34,348 bases of DNA from a virus: the IMG/VR virus record IMGVR_UViG_3300025917_000044, positions 1 to 34,348 of that record. The stretch is one strand, 5' to 3'. Made by a program: the position numbers and the translations under genes. Numbering within the stretch: position 1 is the first letter of the stretch; each line of letters opens with the position of its first letter. A model generated the notes under the pieces. The model was given only the letters and a program-made list of their open reading frames with translations. It ran no database searches and had not been told where the DNA came from. Below are positions 1,873-24,866 of the stretch, in pieces.

Positions 1873-2121
1873 TCAAGCGGCGGCCTTTGCCCGCTGGTTG
1901 GGGCGTGTGGTCTTGGGTGCGTTCTTGGCGGCGTGCAGGTCCTCGAGGGCGTACAGCGGGCGGCGGGCGGTGCCGGCGGCGGGCTTCAGCAGTCCACGGC
2001 GGCGCCAGTCCCGGATGGTGGCGGGCTGGACTTGGACGGCGAATGCGGCGAGGTCGGCAGGGAGAAGGCGGCGCATGCGGCCAGTGTCGGCGGGATTCGC
2101 GCGCGCGTTCCCCTGGCTCAC
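1873..2121 (-). CDS. small HTH DNA-binding protein co-translated with the recombinase
   Basis: This 82-aa basic protein has a MerR/excisionase-like helix-turn-helix: LLPADLAAFAVQVQ, then PATIRDWRRRGLLKP (about residues 33-47), then PLYALEDL, the usual wing-like continuation. Its GTG start overlaps the recombinase stop (GTGA), so translation is coupled. An internal ATG (residue 16) is an alternative start. The tail is lysine/arginine-rich. Proteins of this kind act as recombination directionality factors or small regulators; a co-translated partner suggests it assists or controls the recombinase, or represses its promoter. P1 Cre has no such partner, which makes the pairing notable. Confidence 0.75.
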   Translation of the reverse strand: MSQGNARANPADTGRMRRLLPADLAAFAVQVQPATIRDWRRRGLLKPAAGTARRPLYALEDLHAAKNAPKTTRPNQRAKAAA

Positions 2122-3197
2122 AGCCCGATGCCGTCGGTGGCGGCGTCCTCCCACATCTCGCCCTCCTCCACGTACTCCCAGAAGACGGGGGAGTTGGTGG
2201 CGTGCCCGGTCTGGGCTCGCAGCTTCTCTACCTTCTTGCCCTTCTTGCGGCCGGTGGTCACCAGGCCTCGGCGCATGGAGTGGCCGACCAGGCGGGTGTC
2301 GAGCTCGGCGCGTTGGGCGGCGCGGGTGATGGCGATGCGGCAGCCGTCCGGGGACAGGCGGCGTTCGCCGAGGCGGCCGGCCTCGTTGACGGGGACGAAC
2401 GCGGGGCCGGTGGTGCGGCCCAGGGTTTCCTTCCAGGACAGCCACAGGCGGACGGGGCAGGTGGCGGCGTGCTCGCCGAACGCGACGGGGACGGTGCGCG
2501 CCTTTCGGCCCTTGACCGAGGGAACGTAGACCTCGAGGCCTTCGCCGGAGAGCTTGATGCCGTCGACGGTGAGCGCGGACACCTCGGAGGAACGGCCGCC
2601 GATCGCGAACGCCATTGCGGCCAGGGCCCGGTCGCGCAGCAGGGCGACGTCCGGCGGGACGTGCTTCTTGCGCGTGGCGGTGGGCTTGGGGACGGCGGTG
2701 TTCATGGCGCGGATCTGTGCGGGGGTGGCGGCCGGCGCCTTCCCGCGGCCGCGGGCGATCCGGTCGGCGGCGAGCTTCAGGGGCTTCAGGGCCTCGCGCG
2801 CTGCCTCGGTTGCTTCCTTGGGGACGGTGACGCCGTGCTCGCGGCGGGCGGTGACGGTGACTCCGGTGATGCGGCGGTCGATGGAGTTCGGGGCGGCCTG
2901 CTTCACCTGGTCCAGCCACACCACGAATCCGACCATCGTGCCCACGGTCAGGTCGGTGTCCTCGAGCCGGTGGCGGGTGCGTTCGGCGGTCCAGTCGTGG
3001 AACTCCTGCCACAGCTTCCAGTCGCGGGCGTAGCCGGTCCGGGTCTTGGCGGGGCGGTTATCGGCGAGGTGCTTCACTGCGGCCTGGTCGAGGGCGGCGA
3101 GGACCGCGTTCGACGGGTCGACAACGGCGGGAAGATCTCCAGCGGCCTGCGTCGATGTTGCCGGGAGCAGTTCTCCGGTGAGCACTTCGGCGTCCAT
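2118..3197 (-). CDS. Cre-like tyrosine site-specific recombinase
   Basis: The protein is 359 aa, close in size to P1 Cre (343 aa). It has an N-terminal SAM-like core-binding region (about 40-150) and a C-terminal catalytic domain. The tyrosine-recombinase residues are visible: Arg202 in GGRSSEV, a beta-hairpin Lys near 229-232 (SVKGRKART), His306 and Arg309 in GHSMRRG, His332 in QTGHA, and nucleophile Tyr342 in FWEYVEEG. GHSxRxG resembles Cre (GHSARVG). The ATG at 3197 has GGAGGG at about 4-5 nt; longer readings would run through the lox-like dyad at 3222-3255. The gene overlaps the HTH gene by 4 nt. Dimer resolution of a circular prophage is the favoured role; integration is the alternative. 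Confidence 0.9.
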   Translation of the reverse strand: MDAEVLTGELLPATSTQAAGDLPAVVDPSNAVLAALDQAAVKHLADNRPAKTRTGYARDWKLWQEFHDWTAERTRHRLEDTDLTVGTMVGFVVWLDQVKQAAPNSIDRRITGVTVTARREHGVTVPKEATEAAREALKPLKLAADRIARGRGKAPAATPAQIRAMNTAVPKPTATRKKHVPPDVALLRDRALAAMAFAIGGRSSEVSALTVDGIKLSGEGLEVYVPSVKGRKARTVPVAFGEHAATCPVRLWLSWKETLGRTTGPAFVPVNEAGRLGERRLSPDGCRIAITRAAQRAELDTRLVGHSMRRGLVTTGRKKGKKVEKLRAQTGHATNSPVFWEYVEEGEMWEDAATDGIGL

Positions 3198-3221
3198 CCG
3201 ACCCTCCGTCATATCCCTTGA

Positions 3222-3255
3222 AGACCCTCGGATATCGCATCTTATCCGAGGGTCT
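3222..3255. repeat. loxP-like recombination site (13-8-13)
   Basis: The left arm AGACCCTCGGATA (3222-3234) and right arm TATCCGAGGGTCT (3243-3255) are perfectly inverted around an asymmetric 8-bp spacer, TCGCATCT. This is the exact geometry of P1 loxP. The arm matches the loxP arm (ATAACTTCGTATA) at 9 of 13 positions, including the spacer-proximal ATA and the inner TCG. It lies 25 bp upstream of the recombinase start. It could also act as an operator for the recombinase. A terminator is less likely because it sits in a promoter position with no gene ending into it. Confidence 0.8.
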
Positions 3256-3292
3256 AGAGGCTCGGGGGTGCGCCTTCCCTCCCCGGACATGC

Positions 3293-3583: not shown

Positions 3584-3603
3584 ACTTCCGGAGTTCGGGA
3601 GTC
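3584..3603. repeat. 20-bp repeat copy A, candidate centromere/operator
   Basis: The sequence starts ACTTCCGGAGT and ends TCGGGAGTC. It matches copy B at 3893-3912 in 17 of 20 positions, in the same orientation. It lies 9 bp past the stop of the RHH-like gene. It is preceded by an overlapping GAACT/AGTTC dyad (3583-3597) and followed by one more GGGAG unit. Confidence 0.6.
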
Positions 3604-3892: not shown

Positions 3893-3912
3893 ACTCCGGG
3901 AGTCCGGGAGTC
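3893..3912. repeat. 20-bp repeat copy B, candidate centromere/operator
   Basis: The sequence starts ACTCCGGGAGT and ends CCGGGAGTC, with two CCGGGAGT units in tandem. The surrounding 25 bp (3890-3914) is a near-perfect dyad (20 of 25 positions symmetric). It sits in the divergent region between the RHH-like gene and parA, immediately upstream of the RHH start, so it is well placed to be both an operator and a parS-like site. Confidence 0.65.
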
Positions 3913-4015: not shown

Positions 4016-4936
4016 ATGAGCGACCTTCCCAGGACCTTGTTGCCTGCTCTGTCCAGTCCGCCGGGCGACCGGCTGGAGATCGTGTCGGTGTGGGACGACG
4101 ACACCCCGTATCAGTCGTGGCGGCCGCAGATACTGGTCCCCGCTACGTTCCGGCCGGGGGCGACCCGTGTGTTCGTCGTGGTGAACCAGAAGGGCGGCGC
4201 CGGCAAGACGACGACCGTGGTGGAGCTGGCGGCCGCATGGGCGGCGCAGGGCCTGCGGGTACGGGTCATCGACGCCGACCACCAGGAAGCGGCCCTGTCC
4301 CAGTGGCTGCTCCCCCAGTTCCCCGAGGGTGCCCCGCGGCACACCCTGCGTTCGGTGTTCTTCAACGAGTGCACGCTGCTCGAGGCGACCTACCCGACGC
4401 TGTTCGAGAACATCGACATCATCCCGTCCACGGTCGACCTCGTTCGGGTGGAGTACGAACGGCCGATCGGCGCCGAGATGGCCCTGGCCCGTGCGCTCGC
4501 CGCCGAGGAAGAACAGCAGGGCTCCGCGCCGTACGACGTGACGCTGCTGGACTGCGCGCCCTCCCTCAGCCTGGTGACGGTGGCGGCGATGTCGTGCGGG
4601 GATGAGGCGATCGTGCCCCTGAGCGTAGGCGGCCTGGACCTCAAGGCCATGGCGAGCCTTCACCGAACGATCCTGACGGTGCAGGAGAAGAACAACCCGA
4701 AGCTGGACGTGGGCGCGGTGTTCCTGACCGCGTGGGACAAGTCCAGCTTTGCCCGCCAGCTGGCCACCCGGCTGTCGACGGACTACCCGGACGCCGCCAT
4801 CATCCCGATCCGGCGCAGCATCCGTGCCGCCGAGGCCCCCATCGTCGAGCAGCCGGTCAGGTTGTACGCGCCGGAGTCGACGGCGGCCGCGGACTATGCC
4901 CAGGGCGCCGACATCATCCGGCGGGGTGCGGCGTGA
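4016..4936 (+). CDS. parA: ParA-type partition ATPase
   Basis: This 306-aa deviant Walker ATPase has KGGAGKTT at residues 59-66 (with the signature lysine), the A-prime motif VIDADHQ (84-90) and the Walker B-like strand VTLLDCAP. ParA proteins bind DNA non-specifically with ATP and, stimulated by ParB, move plasmid copies apart. The roughly 50-residue N-terminal extension shows no obvious HTH, so autoregulation may lie with the RHH-like or ParB-like protein. Its stop overlaps the parB-like GTG start (GTGA). Its presence in a phage genome points to plasmid-state lysogeny. Confidence 0.92.
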   Translation: MSDLPRTLLPALSSPPGDRLEIVSVWDDDTPYQSWRPQILVPATFRPGATRVFVVVNQKGGAGKTTTVVELAAAWAAQGLRVRVIDADHQEAALSQWLLPQFPEGAPRHTLRSVFFNECTLLEATYPTLFENIDIIPSTVDLVRVEYERPIGAEMALARALAAEEEQQGSAPYDVTLLDCAPSLSLVTVAAMSCGDEAIVPLSVGGLDLKAMASLHRTILTVQEKNNPKLDVGAVFLTAWDKSSFARQLATRLSTDYPDAAIIPIRRSIRAAEAPIVEQPVRLYAPESTAAADYAQGADIIRRGAA

Positions 4937-5901
4937 GCGGCAGGCGGCCCACCCTGAACCTGCCGGGCATCAACGGCACGCCCCCGGCGGAGCAGACGGC
5001 CCTCGATGTCGGGCAGCCGGCGCCGTCGGAGGACGGTGTCCTGTTCGGCGTGACGGGCGCCTCGGTGTCCGCGCCGCCCCTGACGCTGAGCCAGCTGCCG
5101 ACGCCGTACGACGTGGGAGCGGAGGTCGTCTCCCCGCTCACCGACAAGGAGCGCACCGACCTCCAGACGTGCGAGCAGGCGTTGCACGGCTTCCGGAAGG
5201 CGCTGATCGTCGCGGGCAAGGCGCTGGAGGTCATCAACCGGGGACGGCTGTACCGGGAGACCCACGCGACGTTCGCCGACTACGTGCTGGAGGTCTGGGG
5301 GTTCAAGCGCACGCACGCCTACCGGATGATCGAAGAGTGGCCGGTGGCCGTCGCCGTGTCCCCAATTGGGGACATCAACGAAGCTCAGGCCCGGGAGCTG
5401 CTGCCGGTGTTCAAGGACCACGGGCGGGAGGCCGCCGCCGTGCTGTACCGGGAGACGCGGGAGCTGACGGGCGGGAAGGTGACGGCGGCCGCGCTCGCCG
5501 AGGCCCGCGCCGTTCTGCCCCCGAGGCTGGCCGCGCCGGAGCAGGCGGCGGACGTGCTGCGGGTGGCGGCCGCCGAGGGCCGGGTGCCGCGCATCGTTGC
5601 CCCGCGGGTGGCCATCCCGGAGCAGGCGGCCGGGGATCCTGTGCTGACCGCCGAGGACATCGCCCGGGAGGACGTCCGCGCGGGAGCCGAGGGAATCGCC
5701 GTCCTCGAGGCCGCGCTCGCGCAGCAGAAGCAGATCTATGACCGGCTCGCCGGGGTGGTGCCCAAGGCCCTCGGGTACGACCCGGGCCGTGCCGAGATGC
5801 TGCTGGGTGACCTGCGGGCGTACGCACACCGGACGGCATACCGGGCCCGTGGCCGGGAGCGCGACGACGGAGGGGAACACGGGCCTGATCAGGCCCCATG
5901 A
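4933..5901 (+). CDS. ParB-like DNA-binding partition protein
   Basis: This 322-aa protein starts at GTG 4933, overlapping the parA stop. The first 65 residues are low-complexity. A helical domain follows, with VINRGRLYRETHATFADYV and the HTH-like GFKRTHAYRMIEEW (about 123-136). The C-terminal half (230-310) is rich in Ala/Glu/Arg and probably dimerises. No canonical ParB CTPase box (GERRxxA) was seen, so this is not a chromosomal-type ParB. The identification rests on the HTH and on coupling to parA. It is likely the centromere-binding partner, perhaps together with the RHH-like protein. Confidence 0.75.
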   Translation: MSGRRPTLNLPGINGTPPAEQTALDVGQPAPSEDGVLFGVTGASVSAPPLTLSQLPTPYDVGAEVVSPLTDKERTDLQTCEQALHGFRKALIVAGKALEVINRGRLYRETHATFADYVLEVWGFKRTHAYRMIEEWPVAVAVSPIGDINEAQARELLPVFKDHGREAAAVLYRETRELTGGKVTAAALAEARAVLPPRLAAPEQAADVLRVAAAEGRVPRIVAPRVAIPEQAAGDPVLTAEDIAREDVRAGAEGIAVLEAALAQQKQIYDRLAGVVPKALGYDPGRAEMLLGDLRAYAHRTAYRARGRERDDGGEHGPDQAP

Positions 5902-7151: not shown

Positions 7152-8534
7152 TCAGGTCTGCGCCATGTCCACGAATCGCGAGTAGTGCCCCTGGAAGGCC
7201 ACGGTGATCGTCGCGGTGGGCCCGTTGCGGTGCTTGCCCACGATGATGTCCGCCTCGCCCGCGCGGGCTGTCTCCTTCTCGTAGGCGTCCTCGCGGTGCA
7301 GCAGGATCACCATGTCGGCGTCCTGCTCGATGGCGCCGGACTCCCGCAGGTCGGACATCATCGGCTTCTTGTCGGTGCGCTGCTCGGGCCCACGGTTCAG
7401 CTGCGACAGGGCAACGACCGGGATGCCGAGTTCCTTGGCCAGCATCTTCAGGCTGCGGGACATGTCGGCGACTTCCTGCTGCCGTGACTCGGCCTTGCGG
7501 GCGGTGCCCATCTGCATCAGCTGGAGGTAGTCGACGACCAGCAGGTCCAGCCTGCCGCGCTGCTTCAGCTTGCGCGCCTTGGTGCGGATGGACATCAGGG
7601 TGAGGTCAGGTGAGTCGTCGATGTAGAGGCCGCTGTTGGCCACCTTGGTCTTCGCCTTGGCCAGGCGACCCCACGCGGGTTCGTCCAGGGTGCCCCCACG
7701 GATGTTGTGGAGGCCAACCGATCCCTCGGCGGACAGAAGGCGCTGGTGGATCTCCCTTCGGCTCATCTCGAGGGAGAAGTAGGCGGCATGGCCTCCGTGC
7801 TTGATGGAGACGGCGCGGGCGAAGTCCAGGGCCAGGGTCGACTTGCCCATGGCGGGGCGACCAGCCACCACGATCATCTGGCCGCTCTGGAAGCCGTCGG
7901 TGAGGCTGTCCAGGTCGGTGAAGCCGGACGGCTGACCGGTCAGTTGCTCGGGGTCCCGCTTGCTTGCTGCGTCGATGGCGTCGACCGTGTCGTCCAGTCC
8001 GACGTCGGCGTGCAGCAGCGTGTCCTCGGTGGCCTGTTCGGCGATGTTGAAGACCTCGGCCTGGGCGGCGTCGACCAGCTCGGAGGCGTCACCGCCACGC
8101 TGGTATCCGATCTGCGTGATGCGGGTACCGGCCTCCACCAGGGAGCGGGCCACCGCAGCGTCGTGCACCAGCTCCGAGTAGTAGGCCGCGTTCGCTGCGG
8201 TCGGCACGGTCTGGACCAGGGTGTGCAGGTAGCTGGCGCCGCCCACCTTGTTGATGTCGCCGGTCTTGGTCAGGTGCGCGGCAACCGTGATGGGGTCGGC
8301 CGGCTCACCCTTGCCGTACAGCTCGAGGATGGCGGCGTAGATGGTCTGGTGGGCGGGCTTGTAGAAGCCCTTGCCGTCACGCATGATCTCCGCGACTTCG
8401 CCGATGGCGTCCTTGGACAGCAGCATGCCACCGAGGACGGACTGTTCCGAGTCCAGGTCCTGCGGGGGGATGCGCTCGAAGGGGTCCGGCTCGTACGCCT
8501 CGGCATCGTGGCGGGCGTCGGTCTGTACGCTCAT
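7152..8534 (-). CDS. dnaB: replicative DNA helicase, DnaB family
   Basis: This 460-aa protein has full DnaB architecture: an N-terminal domain (PPQDLDSEQSVLGGMLL, residues 24-40; PTAANAAYYSELV), a linker, and a RecA-like C-domain with Walker A GRPAMGKST (225-233), FSLEMS, Walker B LLVVDYLQLM (331-340), LSQLNRGPEQR, and the DLRESGAIEQDAD sensor region. It unwinds DNA 5'-3' as a hexamer at the phage fork. The ATG at 8534 has GGAGAT 6-8 nt upstream; a TTG 18 nt earlier is less likely. The helix-turn-helix replication gene upstream is the likely loader/initiator. Length and motifs are intact. Confidence 0.95.
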   Translation of the reverse strand: MSVQTDARHDAEAYEPDPFERIPPQDLDSEQSVLGGMLLSKDAIGEVAEIMRDGKGFYKPAHQTIYAAILELYGKGEPADPITVAAHLTKTGDINKVGGASYLHTLVQTVPTAANAAYYSELVHDAAVARSLVEAGTRITQIGYQRGGDASELVDAAQAEVFNIAEQATEDTLLHADVGLDDTVDAIDAASKRDPEQLTGQPSGFTDLDSLTDGFQSGQMIVVAGRPAMGKSTLALDFARAVSIKHGGHAAYFSLEMSRREIHQRLLSAEGSVGLHNIRGGTLDEPAWGRLAKAKTKVANSGLYIDDSPDLTLMSIRTKARKLKQRGRLDLLVVDYLQLMQMGTARKAESRQQEVADMSRSLKMLAKELGIPVVALSQLNRGPEQRTDKKPMMSDLRESGAIEQDADMVILLHREDAYEKETARAGEADIIVGKHRNGPTATITVAFQGHYSRFVDMAQT

Positions 8535-8610
8535 AGGTGGATCTCCGTTCAAGGGGTTCGAGCGGCGGCCGGGGCCTGGCGAGGTAACCGGCCGCCGTTG
8601 TGCGTTCTGG

Positions 8611-13790: not shown

Positions 13791-14846
13791 GTGACGGTAC
13801 AGGGAGCGACCTCCCCCGTCTCTGACACCCAGCGCGCCGACGACCAGTTCACCGAGATCTACGCGGCGCACCGCGTCCGCCTGGTCCGCTACCTGGCGAT
13901 GCTCCTGGGCCCCGGCCAGACACCGCTTGCCGAGGACATGGCCCAGGACGCGTTCATCCAGCTGTGGCGCGACCTCACGGAGAAGACCAACCCCGTCGAC
14001 TCCGCCCGGGTGTACGGACTCCTGAAGATCATGGGACGGCGTGCGATCGGCTCGTACTACAAGAGCGCACGCAACCACGAAGCATCCGTCGACTACGACG
14101 CCCCCGAGAACAAGCCCCTGATCCCCGCCGGCCACTCCTACGCGCCGGACGTCCCCGAGCTGCACGCGCTGGCCCTGGAACTGGACGCCGCCATGCAGCG
14201 CATGACCGAGGCGTCCGCGCTGTGGCGCAACCTCAACAAGGAGTCCGCCGCCTGCCGTCTGAAGCTGAGCGACGGATGGCGCGACAACCGCGGGGGCCTC
14301 ACCCCCAGGACGCGCCAGGACCTCGAGGACAAGGCCGCCGACACCGAGGCCGCCGAGGAGAAGGCACTGGTGGCCTTCCGCGAGACCTGCCGTCAGGTCG
14401 GCCTGCTGCGCGCCGAGATGGAACGCGCGGCCGGCCCGAACTGGCGGTCGTCCACCGGCATGCCGCACCGCACGCACTCCGGCGGCGGTGAACTGTCGTA
14501 CGCCAAGGACCCCACGGCCACGCACTGCGCCAAGGGCCACCTGCTGGACCGGCTCAACACGGCCTACACCGAAGAGGGATACCGGCGCTGCCGGGCCTGC
14601 CTGCGGGAGAAGGGCCTGAAGTCCAAGCCGCGCGCCAACGACCCGTCCGTCCGGCGCGGCCGCACCACCGACCCCGAGGTCATCGAGCGAGCCCGCCAGC
14701 TGCTCGCCGACCCGGCCCTGGACCACAACATGCGCAGCGTCGCCGAGCTGCTCGGAGTCGGCCAGATGACGCTGTACCGCGCCTTCCCCGGCGGTGTCGC
14801 CGCCGTCCGCCAGGCCGCCCTCGAGACCGCGGGGGCCACCCGATGA
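13791..14846 (+). CDS. sigma-factor-like fusion protein with zinc motif and C-terminal HTH
   Basis: This 351-aa protein starts at GTG 13791, with AAGGAG 7 nt upstream. Residues 18-96 resemble sigma-70 region 2: FTEIYAAHRVRLVRYLAMLLG, EDMAQDAFIQLWRDL, VYGLLKIMGRRAIGSYYKS. A long coiled segment follows (125-215), then a zinc-like motif (CAKGH near 246, CRAC at 267-270), and finally an HTH (MRSVAELLGVGQMTLYRAF, about 314-332). No ordinary ECF region 4 follows region 2, so the -35-reading role may have passed to the C-terminal HTH. It could be a phage sigma factor, or a repurposed DNA-binding protein. It is coupled by ATGA to the next gene. Confidence 0.7.
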   Translation: MTVQGATSPVSDTQRADDQFTEIYAAHRVRLVRYLAMLLGPGQTPLAEDMAQDAFIQLWRDLTEKTNPVDSARVYGLLKIMGRRAIGSYYKSARNHEASVDYDAPENKPLIPAGHSYAPDVPELHALALELDAAMQRMTEASALWRNLNKESAACRLKLSDGWRDNRGGLTPRTRQDLEDKAADTEAAEEKALVAFRETCRQVGLLRAEMERAAGPNWRSSTGMPHRTHSGGGELSYAKDPTATHCAKGHLLDRLNTAYTEEGYRRCRACLREKGLKSKPRANDPSVRRGRTTDPEVIERARQLLADPALDHNMRSVAELLGVGQMTLYRAFPGGVAAVRQAALETAGATR

Positions 14847-16087
14847 CTACCTCCCCCATTGCACGACTGCACGAGAGGAACCACCCCGTGACCACCGCCC
14901 CGGCCCTACTGGGCCCCGACGGCCAGGCCCTCCCCCGCACCGCAACGGCGCCGGCGAGCGACTGGATGCCCGTACGCGCCACCGACAACGCCGTCGTATG
15001 GGAGCGTCCCCGGCCAGTGGCCGCACCCGTGCCGGACGTTGACCCCCTCGAGCAGGCCCGCGCCGACGCGGCCAAGCTGCTGGACGACGCCCGCGCCGAG
15101 GCCGACCACATCACCGCCGAGGCCCGCAGCCTCCGCGCGCGCACTCTCGGAGCAGCCGACCACGAAGCCCGCACCATCCGCGAGACGGCCGCCGCCGAGG
15201 TCGCCCGTAAAGAGGAGAAGGGCCGGAAGCTGGACAAGTGGATGGGGCGCGGCGCCATCACGGGCGCAATCGGCCTCACCGCGTTCGGTGAGTACTCCCT
15301 CGCCCGGCTCGCCCACTTCCCGCAACAGGTGGCGTGGCTGCTGCCGTTCGTCATCGACCTGTACGTCATCCAGGCGTTCCGCCGGCACCGCGACACCCGC
15401 CTGGCCATCGCTCTCACCGTCGCCGTGAACGTCATCTACCACCTCGCCGCGGCGGGGATGTTCGGCGTGACGACCGACGCCAACGGCAAGCACCTCGCCA
15501 CCTGGTGGCTGATCGCGATGGTGTCGTCCATCGCCTCCGTGATCCTGTGGCGAATGCACGTCATCACCGAACCGGTCGCGGAGAAGAAGCGGCCCCGCGC
15601 GGTCATCGCCGAGGCGCCGTATGAGAGTGAGAGTGCACCGGTCGCCGTTGCTCTCACGACGCCTGAGAGTGCCCCTGCTGCCGCGCCCGTTGAGAGCGTG
15701 AGAGTGGCAGGTGAGCGCACGGATGAGAGCACCCGTGAGAGTGCCGTTGAGAGCGCGTCTGAGAGTGCCGTTGAGAGCACCGATGAGAGTGCGGGTGAGA
15801 GTGCCCCCAACTCTCACGAGGACGACACCACCGACTCTCACCCGGCCCCCCGTGAGAGTGCACCAGGCCGCTCTCACCGCCGCCCGAACCGGCGCCGTGA
15901 GAGTGCCGAGAAGGTGTCAGCGATCAGCACGCCTGAGAGTGAAGTGGACGCCCTCGTCGCTCTCATGCGAGAGCGTGGCGGTGCCGACGCGGTGACTCTC
16001 AACGACGCCAAGCGCATCGCCGCCGGCCGTTCCGAGGCCACGGCCGCCCGACGCCTTCAGGCAGCCCGAACCCAGTACGCCAAGTAA
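14843..16087 (+). CDS. DUF2637-like (Spi/Spd-type) membrane protein with embedded DNA repeats
   Basis: This 414-aa protein has a coiled coil (about 66-125), then four hydrophobic segments (about 135-157, 162-179, 187-209, 218-240) with the FGEYSLA and LPFVIDLYVIQAFR patterns typical of DUF2637 proteins of Streptomyces plasmids and integrative elements. A Glu-Ser-rich tail (260-340) and a C-terminal small helical domain (364-412) follow. In plasmids such proteins are linked to intramycelial spread. ATG 14843 overlaps the previous stop; GTG 14888 has a better ribosome site (GAGAGGA). The tail-coding DNA carries 21 TGAGAG(T/C) boxes. Confidence 0.8.
   Translation: MTTSPIARLHERNHPVTTAPALLGPDGQALPRTATAPASDWMPVRATDNAVVWERPRPVAAPVPDVDPLEQARADAAKLLDDARAEADHITAEARSLRARTLGAADHEARTIRETAAAEVARKEEKGRKLDKWMGRGAITGAIGLTAFGEYSLARLAHFPQQVAWLLPFVIDLYVIQAFRRHRDTRLAIALTVAVNVIYHLAAAGMFGVTTDANGKHLATWWLIAMVSSIASVILWRMHVITEPVAEKKRPRAVIAEAPYESESAPVAVALTTPESAPAAAPVESVRVAGERTDESTRESAVESASESAVESTDESAGESAPNSHEDDTTDSHPAPRESAPGRSHRRPNRRRESAEKVSAISTPESEVDALVALMRERGGADAVTLNDAKRIAAGRSEATAARRLQAARTQYAK
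15622..16001. repeat. array of 21 TGAGAG(T/C) boxes on both strands
   Basis: Fifteen copies lie on plus (15622, 15628, 15664, 15691, 15699, 15724, 15736, 15748, 15760, 15772, 15784, 15796, 15853, 15898, 15934) and six on minus (15650, 15810, 15834, 15870, 15959, 15995). Seven central copies are exactly 12 bp apart. The boxes fall in several reading contexts (ES, RV, AL, SH, TL), so conservation is at DNA level. One outlier lies at 15410. It is a candidate binding array for a replication, partition or transfer protein. Confidence 0.8.
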
Positions 16088-24170: not shown

Positions 24171-24866
24171 GCTCGTCACCCCCCATCGACTTGTTGATGC
24201 CGCGGATGGCCGCCAGCAGTTCCTGCGGGCCCTTCCGTTCGGTTCCGTAGGGCAGTAGGAAGTCCTGCGGTGTGAATCGCTTGCTGCCCTTGCCCCGGTT
24301 GGCGTTGGCGACGGTGGCGGCGATGGTGGCCGCCTGGATGTCGTTCCGGCGCCTGCCGAGTGGGCCGGTGATTTTCTCGAAGGCCATCCACTCGGTCAGT
24401 TCGGACGAACCCAGCCGGGAGTCCAGGTCGGCCACCGTCATCCCGAGGTGCTCCGCTAGTCGGAAACGGAAGAGCCGCTCTGGGCGGCGTCGGAGTTTCC
24501 CTCTGCTTCCTTCACGGCGAACCGGCCCATGCGTGAGAGCTCCTGGACCTTGCCTGCCAGCCGCTCGATGACTGCGCCGGACTTCTTGCTCAGCTCGCCG
24601 ATCTCCTTGTTGGAGTAGAGCCGCTCGAAGTTCTCGTCCACCAGTCCGAAGGCGACGAGCTTCTCCCGGTACGTCTTGAGCGACTCGATCCGCAGCTGCG
24701 GGCTCTGGCCGTTGGCGACGACGCTGCCGGCCTCGATGTATCCCCGGTCGGCGGCCGTCAGCTCCATGAGCCGGACCATCGCGCCCTCGCCCCACTCGGG
24801 CACGGGCACGTCCTCCCACGTCCGGTCGACGGCGGAGTTGATCTGTGCCTTCGTCAGTAGTGCCAT
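24151..24866 (-). CDS. tail assembly chaperone GT, frameshift product
   Basis: A -1 slip at GGGAAAC (24495-24501) joins the first 124 codons of the chaperone G gene to the frame reading LRRRPERLFRFRLAEHLGMT and onward to the stop at 24151, giving about 238 aa. This G/GT pair directly before the tape measure is conserved in siphophages and assists tail-tube assembly around the tape measure. The extension contains ADLDSRLGSSELTEWMAFEK, a typical GT C-domain phrase. It runs into the start of the tape measure gene. Confidence 0.85.
24456..24866 (-). CDS. tail assembly chaperone G
   Basis: This 136-aa unshifted product starts at ATG 24866 and ends at TAG 24456. It is acidic and helical (KAQINSAVDRTWEDVPVPEWGEGAMVRL; LVDENFERLYSNKEIGELSKKSGAVIERL), as usual for siphophage chaperones of this position. 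It lies between the tail tube gene and the tape measure. Most ribosomes end here; the minority that slip produce the GT form. Confidence 0.85.
   Translation of the reverse strand: MALLTKAQINSAVDRTWEDVPVPEWGEGAMVRLMELTAADRGYIEAGSVVANGQSPQLRIESLKTYREKLVAFGLVDENFERLYSNKEIGELSKKSGAVIERLAGKVQELSRMGRFAVKEAEGNSDAAQSGSSVSD
24495..24501 (-). promoter_or_regulatory. -1 ribosomal frameshift slippery heptamer
   Basis: On the minus strand it reads G GGA AAC in the chaperone G frame, a canonical X-XXY-YYZ slip site (GGGAAAC). It is located 12 codons before the G stop, and the -1 frame is open for 114 further codons. Confidence 0.85.

Follow-up and report, generated by a model that had tools for sequence, protein, structure and literature searches.

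On balance, we favor a model in which a membrane-anchored helix-turn-helix (HTH) protein encoded by an actinobacterial phage binds an array of short DNA boxes located within its own gene and thereby tethers its replicon to the membrane. The phage is represented by IMG/VR record IMGVR_UViG_3300025917_000044, which may be a fragment and was analyzed over its whole length (34,348 bp, 69.5% GC, hereafter the window). Many relatives of the array gene have arrays of their own, which suggests an undescribed way to tie a mobile DNA element to the membrane. The broader proposition, that widespread one-gene DNA-tethering cassettes exist in actinobacterial phages, plasmids, and chromosomes, in which an element-specific centromere-like array in the linker-coding part is read by the HTH of the same protein to give a private membrane address, we judge to be evenly poised.

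Judged from homologues, the phage host is likely a streptomycete or a relative. The minus strand of the window carries terminase, portal, head protease, and major head and tail genes. The window also encodes a tyrosine integrase (2118-3290), a ParA protein (4016-4936) followed by a ParB-like gene (the cassette spans 4016-5901), and a DnaB helicase (7152-8552), and no replication initiator was identified within it. Given the integrase and the ParA/ParB-like pair, the phage may either integrate or be maintained as an episome with its own partitioning. Upstream of parA there are GGGAGTC-type repeats (at about 3584-3603 and 3893-3912) that could serve as the centromere of the phage itself, as parS-like elements separate from the array described below.

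The array and the protein encoded around it

The window contains 23 copies of TGAGAGY, 21 of which fall between positions 15622 and 16001 (15 on the plus strand and 6 on the minus strand). The other two are an antisense box at 15410-15416, within the membrane-domain coding part of the same gene, and a plus-strand box at 24534. In dinucleotide-preserving shuffles of the window (n=100) the count was 7.1 ± 2.5, with a maximum of 12. Seven plus-strand boxes with starts from 15724 to 15796 (15724-15802) are at exact 12-bp spacing, and the 5-bp spacers between them differ. The array lies mostly in the part of the gene that encodes a linker and its boxes reach into the HTH-coding end. Our recount agrees with the earlier note on this DNA, which had reported 21 boxes, seven of them in 12-bp phase, inside a membrane-protein gene, on both strands and in several reading contexts (we found multiple frames), with isolated matches only elsewhere.

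The array gene (14843-16087, plus strand) is an open frame that encodes 414 aa and has a coding GC3 pattern; its true start may be the GTG at 14888, the equivalent of the position annotated as the start in the homologue of plasmid CP108844. AlphaFold2 predicts an N-terminal coiled coil (residues 68-132, positions 15044-15238), modeled as a long helix over residues 71-130 with pLDDT 84-97, which is continuous with the first helix of a DUF2637-like four-helix membrane domain (residues 133-242, 15239-15568) also recognized from its conservation across homologues. The membrane helices (to residue 156, 161-180, 185-203, and 221-242) were predicted with moderate confidence (pLDDT 60-71). A disordered linker (residues 246-359, 15578-15919; pLDDT 33-43 over most of the stretch), whose coding region carries most of the boxes, leads to a predicted C-terminal three-helix HTH (residues 360-414, 15920-16084). 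This domain is the presumed box binder, because box class tracks it. The HTH helices (364-378, 386-392, and 398-413) had pLDDT values of 90-98, and no beta wing was predicted in the full protein or when the HTH was modeled alone. The presumed recognition helix (16034-16081), which begins at E398 and has the motif S-E-ATAARRL, was assigned from the models and from the finding that residue X of S-X-ATA tracks base 6 of the box. Structure searches found no close structural relative of the HTH and gave only weak matches, mainly to MYB-like and TetR-like HTHs.

From the model and the loop charges we infer that the HTH is cytoplasmic: the even number of membrane helices, together with basic residues in the RRHRD loop and in the segment that follows the final helix, would place both termini on that side of the membrane. 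The window protein gave no match to Pfam DUF2637 (PF10935) and is tied to DUF2637 relatives through alignments A2 and A3; we regard it as a divergent relative of that family, with a polytopic membrane domain predicted by the model. Among the homologues, P0003/L020 matched the Pfam family with E=2.5e-34 and L023 matched it weakly (0.0015, below the cut-off). A Pfam scan found no ATPase domain in the window protein. The gene immediately 5' of the array gene (13791-14846) shows weak sigma-70 region 2, weak HNH-like, and C-terminal HTH-like matches.

Comparison with recoded genes strongly supports selection of the boxes as DNA. The array gene has 22 boxes, whereas synonymous shuffles (n=5000) had 2.09 (sd 1.30, maximum 8) and codons drawn from other genes of the phage gave a mean of 0.25. 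Fourteen of the 21 array boxes read Glu-Ser in a single frame, and the codon before each of the 14 Glu-Ser pairs ends in T, compared with only 7.7% of the other codons of the gene. The Glu-Ser frame could be taken to mean that the boxes are a by-product of a duplicated protein repeat and have no function as DNA, but this is almost certainly wrong. The seven antisense boxes of the gene (0.5 expected) read ALT, ALT, NSH, DSH, RSH, ALM, and TLN in two other frames, the plus-strand box at 15699 lies in another frame and reads V-R-V, and unrelated boxes occupy the same place in genes with other HTH classes. Moreover, as the spacers of the 12-bp run differ, recent tandem duplication fails to explain the pattern. 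The view of the earlier note that selection acts on the DNA, beyond a Glu-Ser tail, is upheld by the excess over synonymous shuffles on both strands. These would be DNA sites kept inside a coding sequence by shaping its codon choice.

Box identity across the family

The nearest relative of the array gene is carried by the 21.6-kb circular Streptomyces chartreusis plasmid CP108844. Its HTH is the same as that of the window protein and the gene has 18 TGAGAG boxes (11 sense and 7 antisense), with different residues at and around the boxes (e.g., ALM versus TLM and TLN versus TLT). Next in closeness is a relative carried by the 36.7-kb phage-plasmid NZ_CP108470 (L023), with a membrane domain 77-80% identical to that of the window protein but a different C-terminal HTH. 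This gene has no TGAGAG sequence and has GGTACC boxes, with 26 CGGTAC hexamers in more than one frame. Hence, where the HTH was replaced the boxes were replaced too, and boxes do not drift freely under a fixed protein. The earlier note had named a conserved protein repeat with freely recoded boxes as the pattern that would speak against selection on DNA; the homologues show the opposite, in that boxes persist as amino acids change.

With the window protein alone as query no relatives were found in viral or genome contigs, and relatives were recovered by use of a plasmid collection and of small alignments as queries. Viral contigs were also scanned for three boxes at 12-bp spacing, which gave matches mostly in lower-GC contigs; the box-bearing ORFs inspected were those of L017, L020, and L021, of which only that of L020 is a homologue. 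Another contig, L007 (IMGVR_UViG_3300049043_000256, 54% GC), has >30 TGAGAGY copies at 1974-2255, mostly at 6-bp spacing and on one strand. This resembles a simple six-base tandem repeat, and no link to the DUF2637-like family was made.

Genes of the DUF2637 type are frequent on Streptomyces plasmids, and phages and chromosomes have them as well. We gathered relatives from plasmids, IMG/VR contigs, and Streptomycetaceae genomes, a sample biased to the Streptomycetaceae, and the membrane-domain profile matched 42 of 296 Streptomyces genomes. Each relative was then scored for an array by comparing its best hexamer, in all coding sequence downstream of the membrane domain, with the maximum of 200 synonymous shuffles. 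By this measure 56 of 70 distinct relatives had an array, whereas 4 of 68 control ORFs taken from these loci (last 170 codons used) passed the test. The box classes included TGAGAG, TGAGAC, TGAAAC/TGAAAG, TGAGCG, CCGTACG, CGTACAG, GGTACC, GGAACC, GGATAC, and GCAACG, and in the sequences examined the array was usually the sole dense cluster of its box. The 14 relatives that failed were mostly short chromosomal members and the L054-L056/L058 phages. The short chromosomal DUF2637 relatives lacking an array by this test include L081, L082, L086, L091-L094, and L097. Some short chromosomal relatives have the motif LRELQAHFRIGQARAQRIR, which may resemble the FtsK gamma domain.

Given these 56 array-bearing genes, all pairs were compared. 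When the membrane domains were at least 60% identical, pairs with homologous HTHs shared the box in 237 of 283 cases and pairs without in 0 of 51, and at 40-60% identity the values were 91 of 110 pairs with homologous tails versus 4 of 728 pairs without, the pairs in both sets not being independent of one another. By this comparison the box goes with the HTH rather than with the membrane domain, and the contrast is very sharp. Some boxes match common six-base restriction sites; we considered mimicry of such sites and dropped it, given that box identity varies with the HTH.

Among HTHs of the window type, residue X of S-X-ATA varies with the box: E, D, or S is found with TGAGAG, K or R with TGAGAC, P with TGAGCC, and Q with a mixture. 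In the clade having P-K/R-STAAKRL helices, K/R pairs with GAGACC. The correlation is suggestive only, as a tree built without that column gave three residue changes and four box changes, and a phylogenetic sign test of the covariation, which had only two independent pairs, was not significant. The members of the P-K/R-STAAKRL clade (L041, L108, L109, L122, and L131) are rich in GAGACC (Glu-Thr) with no preceding T and have a weaker excess over shuffles; the box of this clade seems to be shifted. Two Kitasatospora plasmids (L024 and L026) that encode SQATAWRRL recognition helices have mixed arrays of TGAAAC, TGAAAG, and TGAGAG and are possibly in transition between specificities. The family would offer a natural set of matched HTH-site pairs, apparently with single-residue and single-base differences, useful for work on specificity and plasmid incompatibility.

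A proposed membrane tether and competing explanations

We propose that the TGAGAG(T/C) boxes are the DNA sites of the HTH from the same gene, which would make the gene a self-contained cassette of binder and array. Binding of the array by its own HTH is the step we consider very probable on computational grounds. Many membrane-embedded copies of the protein would grip about 20 sites on the DNA of their own phage or plasmid by means of the flexible linker and the HTH, and binding would hold the replicon at the membrane; such tethering in vivo seems probable. As site and reader lie in one ORF, both would move and change together and each element would have its own address. The element, being extrachromosomal, would most likely benefit in its positioning and inheritance, or by spreading along the hyphae if its host is filamentous, although we place a role in maintenance or spread midway between likely and unlikely. 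We favor maintenance or intramycelial spread because the array is retained on phages and plasmids in which no transfer ATPase was detected. Two precedents point the same way: SpdA2 of plasmid pIJ101, which binds sps within its own coding region, affects segregational stability and not transfer, and SpdB2 is cited as having a stabilizing effect on SLP2 (PMC4170104). Against the model, ParA-type partition genes are present on some plasmids of the family, so that a further maintenance device is not obviously needed. The gene also adjoins transfer genes on some plasmids and on two IMG/VR contigs, an arrangement that is compatible with a transfer role as well.

Such a role is the basis of the main rival explanation, a clt-like start of transfer or translocation in which the membrane protein docks DNA for a TraB-like double-stranded DNA translocase and the array identifies the molecule for translocation. 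Known clt loci are clusters of short repeats read by the C-terminal HTH of the translocase (PMC3583192). In G055 the genes immediately downstream of the TGAGAG gene match NCBIfam plasmid_TraA and plasmid_TraB, two IMG/VR contigs bearing the array gene encode full-length plasmid_TraB, and on several plasmids the neighbors are annotated as conjugal transfer protein TraB. However, plasmid_TraB was undetected in the window phage, the S. chartreusis plasmid, NZ_CP108470, and the L054-L056 contigs, and the chromosomal array-bearing DUF2637 copies examined have no FtsK-type gene nearby. Moreover, with boxes on both strands and some classes palindromic, the array gives no direction, and box identity tracks the HTH of the membrane protein itself. 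We consider a clt-like function unlikely. It is distinctly improbable that the boxes are the iterons of a replication origin located within the gene, with the protein acting as initiator. The anatomy is like that of phage lambda O, in which the origin lies inside the gene of its binder (PMC7157519), and the window has a DnaB helicase without an identified initiator, but lambda O is a soluble replication initiator, whereas the protein here is predicted to be integral to the membrane and lacks a replication domain. GC skew across the window shifts with gene orientation and does not point clearly to an origin at the array. On large plasmids and chromosomes, where other origins exist, a copy would be superfluous, and nothing here points to replication initiation.

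The protein might instead coat its gene as an intragenic operator that represses its own operon or superinfecting relatives having the same box. HTH proteins are commonly autoregulatory and the box is specific to each element, but we think this improbable also, since no promoter-proximal operator cluster is present (the other copies in the window being the one in the same gene and that at 24534), some 20 sites far 3' of a promoter would be unusual for repression, and repression needs no membrane anchor. It is very improbable that the ParA/ParB-like cassette at 4016-5901 uses the array as its centromere (parS). ParA and the downstream ParB-like protein are encoded in the window and a repeat array suits a centromere, yet there are no boxes near parAB, and ParA of the window type is absent from most family records checked. 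In the closest homologue these boxes and this HTH occur with an unrelated ParA-neighbor protein and with a ParA that resembles the window ParA only around the P-loop; we disfavor a site for the phage ParB-like protein because the boxes coexist there with an unrelated partition cassette. Of the roles listed in the earlier note a centromere-like or clt-like site is plausible, the site of the phage ParB-like protein is disfavored, and nothing speaks positively for a regulatory or silencing array, as boxes outside the gene are nearly absent. The likely binder encoded by the same gene and the family-wide arrangement had been overlooked. If the proteins are membrane tethers with private arrays, then a large uncharacterized family would have a function, and there would be a handle on the positioning and spread of plasmids and phage-plasmids in filamentous bacteria.

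Precedents and outlying arrays

Each ingredient of the tether has precedent, and none of SpdA2/sps, TraB/clt, pSK1 Par, or RocS combines all of its features. SpdA2 is a DNA-binding protein of a Streptomyces plasmid with a site in its own coding region, which is the arrangement that the sequence data suggest here. However, sps is a single conserved palindrome, whereas the array here has about 20 nonpalindromic hexamer boxes that vary with the HTH. SpdA2 is soluble, unlike the predicted membrane protein here. In the TraB/clt systems of Streptomyces conjugative plasmids such as pSVH1 and pWTY27 (PMC3583192), a membrane-linked plasmid protein uses a C-terminal HTH to recognize clustered short repeats that are specific to the element and lie inside or beside the gene of that protein, much as is proposed here. 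TraB, by contrast, is an FtsK-like ATPase whose HTH is winged, and clt contains only a few repeats. The window protein lacks both an ATPase domain and a predicted wing, and here it is the ORF itself that contains the array, in phages that lack TraB.

Plasmid pSK1 Par and pneumococcal RocS (PMC11500499) each combine, in a single protein as is predicted here, a DNA-binding domain with a coiled coil, and they function in segregating plasmids or chromosomes. Membrane binding is a further property of RocS, and for pSK1 Par binding to plasmid repeats has been proposed (PMC11500499). RocS uses an amphipathic helix in contrast to the four membrane helices predicted here, and for these two proteins sites inside their own genes have not been reported. 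By description, SpdB2 (pSVH1 and SLP2) is similar in being an integral membrane plasmid protein with DNA-binding activity, which is described as non-specific (cited in PMC4170104). We did not find the combination together with family-wide matched arrays in the searched literature, which covers few subscription papers, and an earlier description is possible. DUF2637 is almost absent from that literature, the name being mentioned in a single paper and only in passing.

Some arrays depart from the common arrangement. A gene on the Embleya plasmid NZ_CP108778 (L028, 2807-5110) encodes a tail that apparently has two copies of the DNA-binding domain, and the tail-coding region contains 23 CGCTCA hexamers, most of which are antisense TGAGCG. 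L114 and L130 each have 18 TGAGCC boxes that are split between the strands, and their membrane-protein tails match the HTH profile weakly (about 20 bits), hence the arrangement may reach beyond the DUF2637 family.
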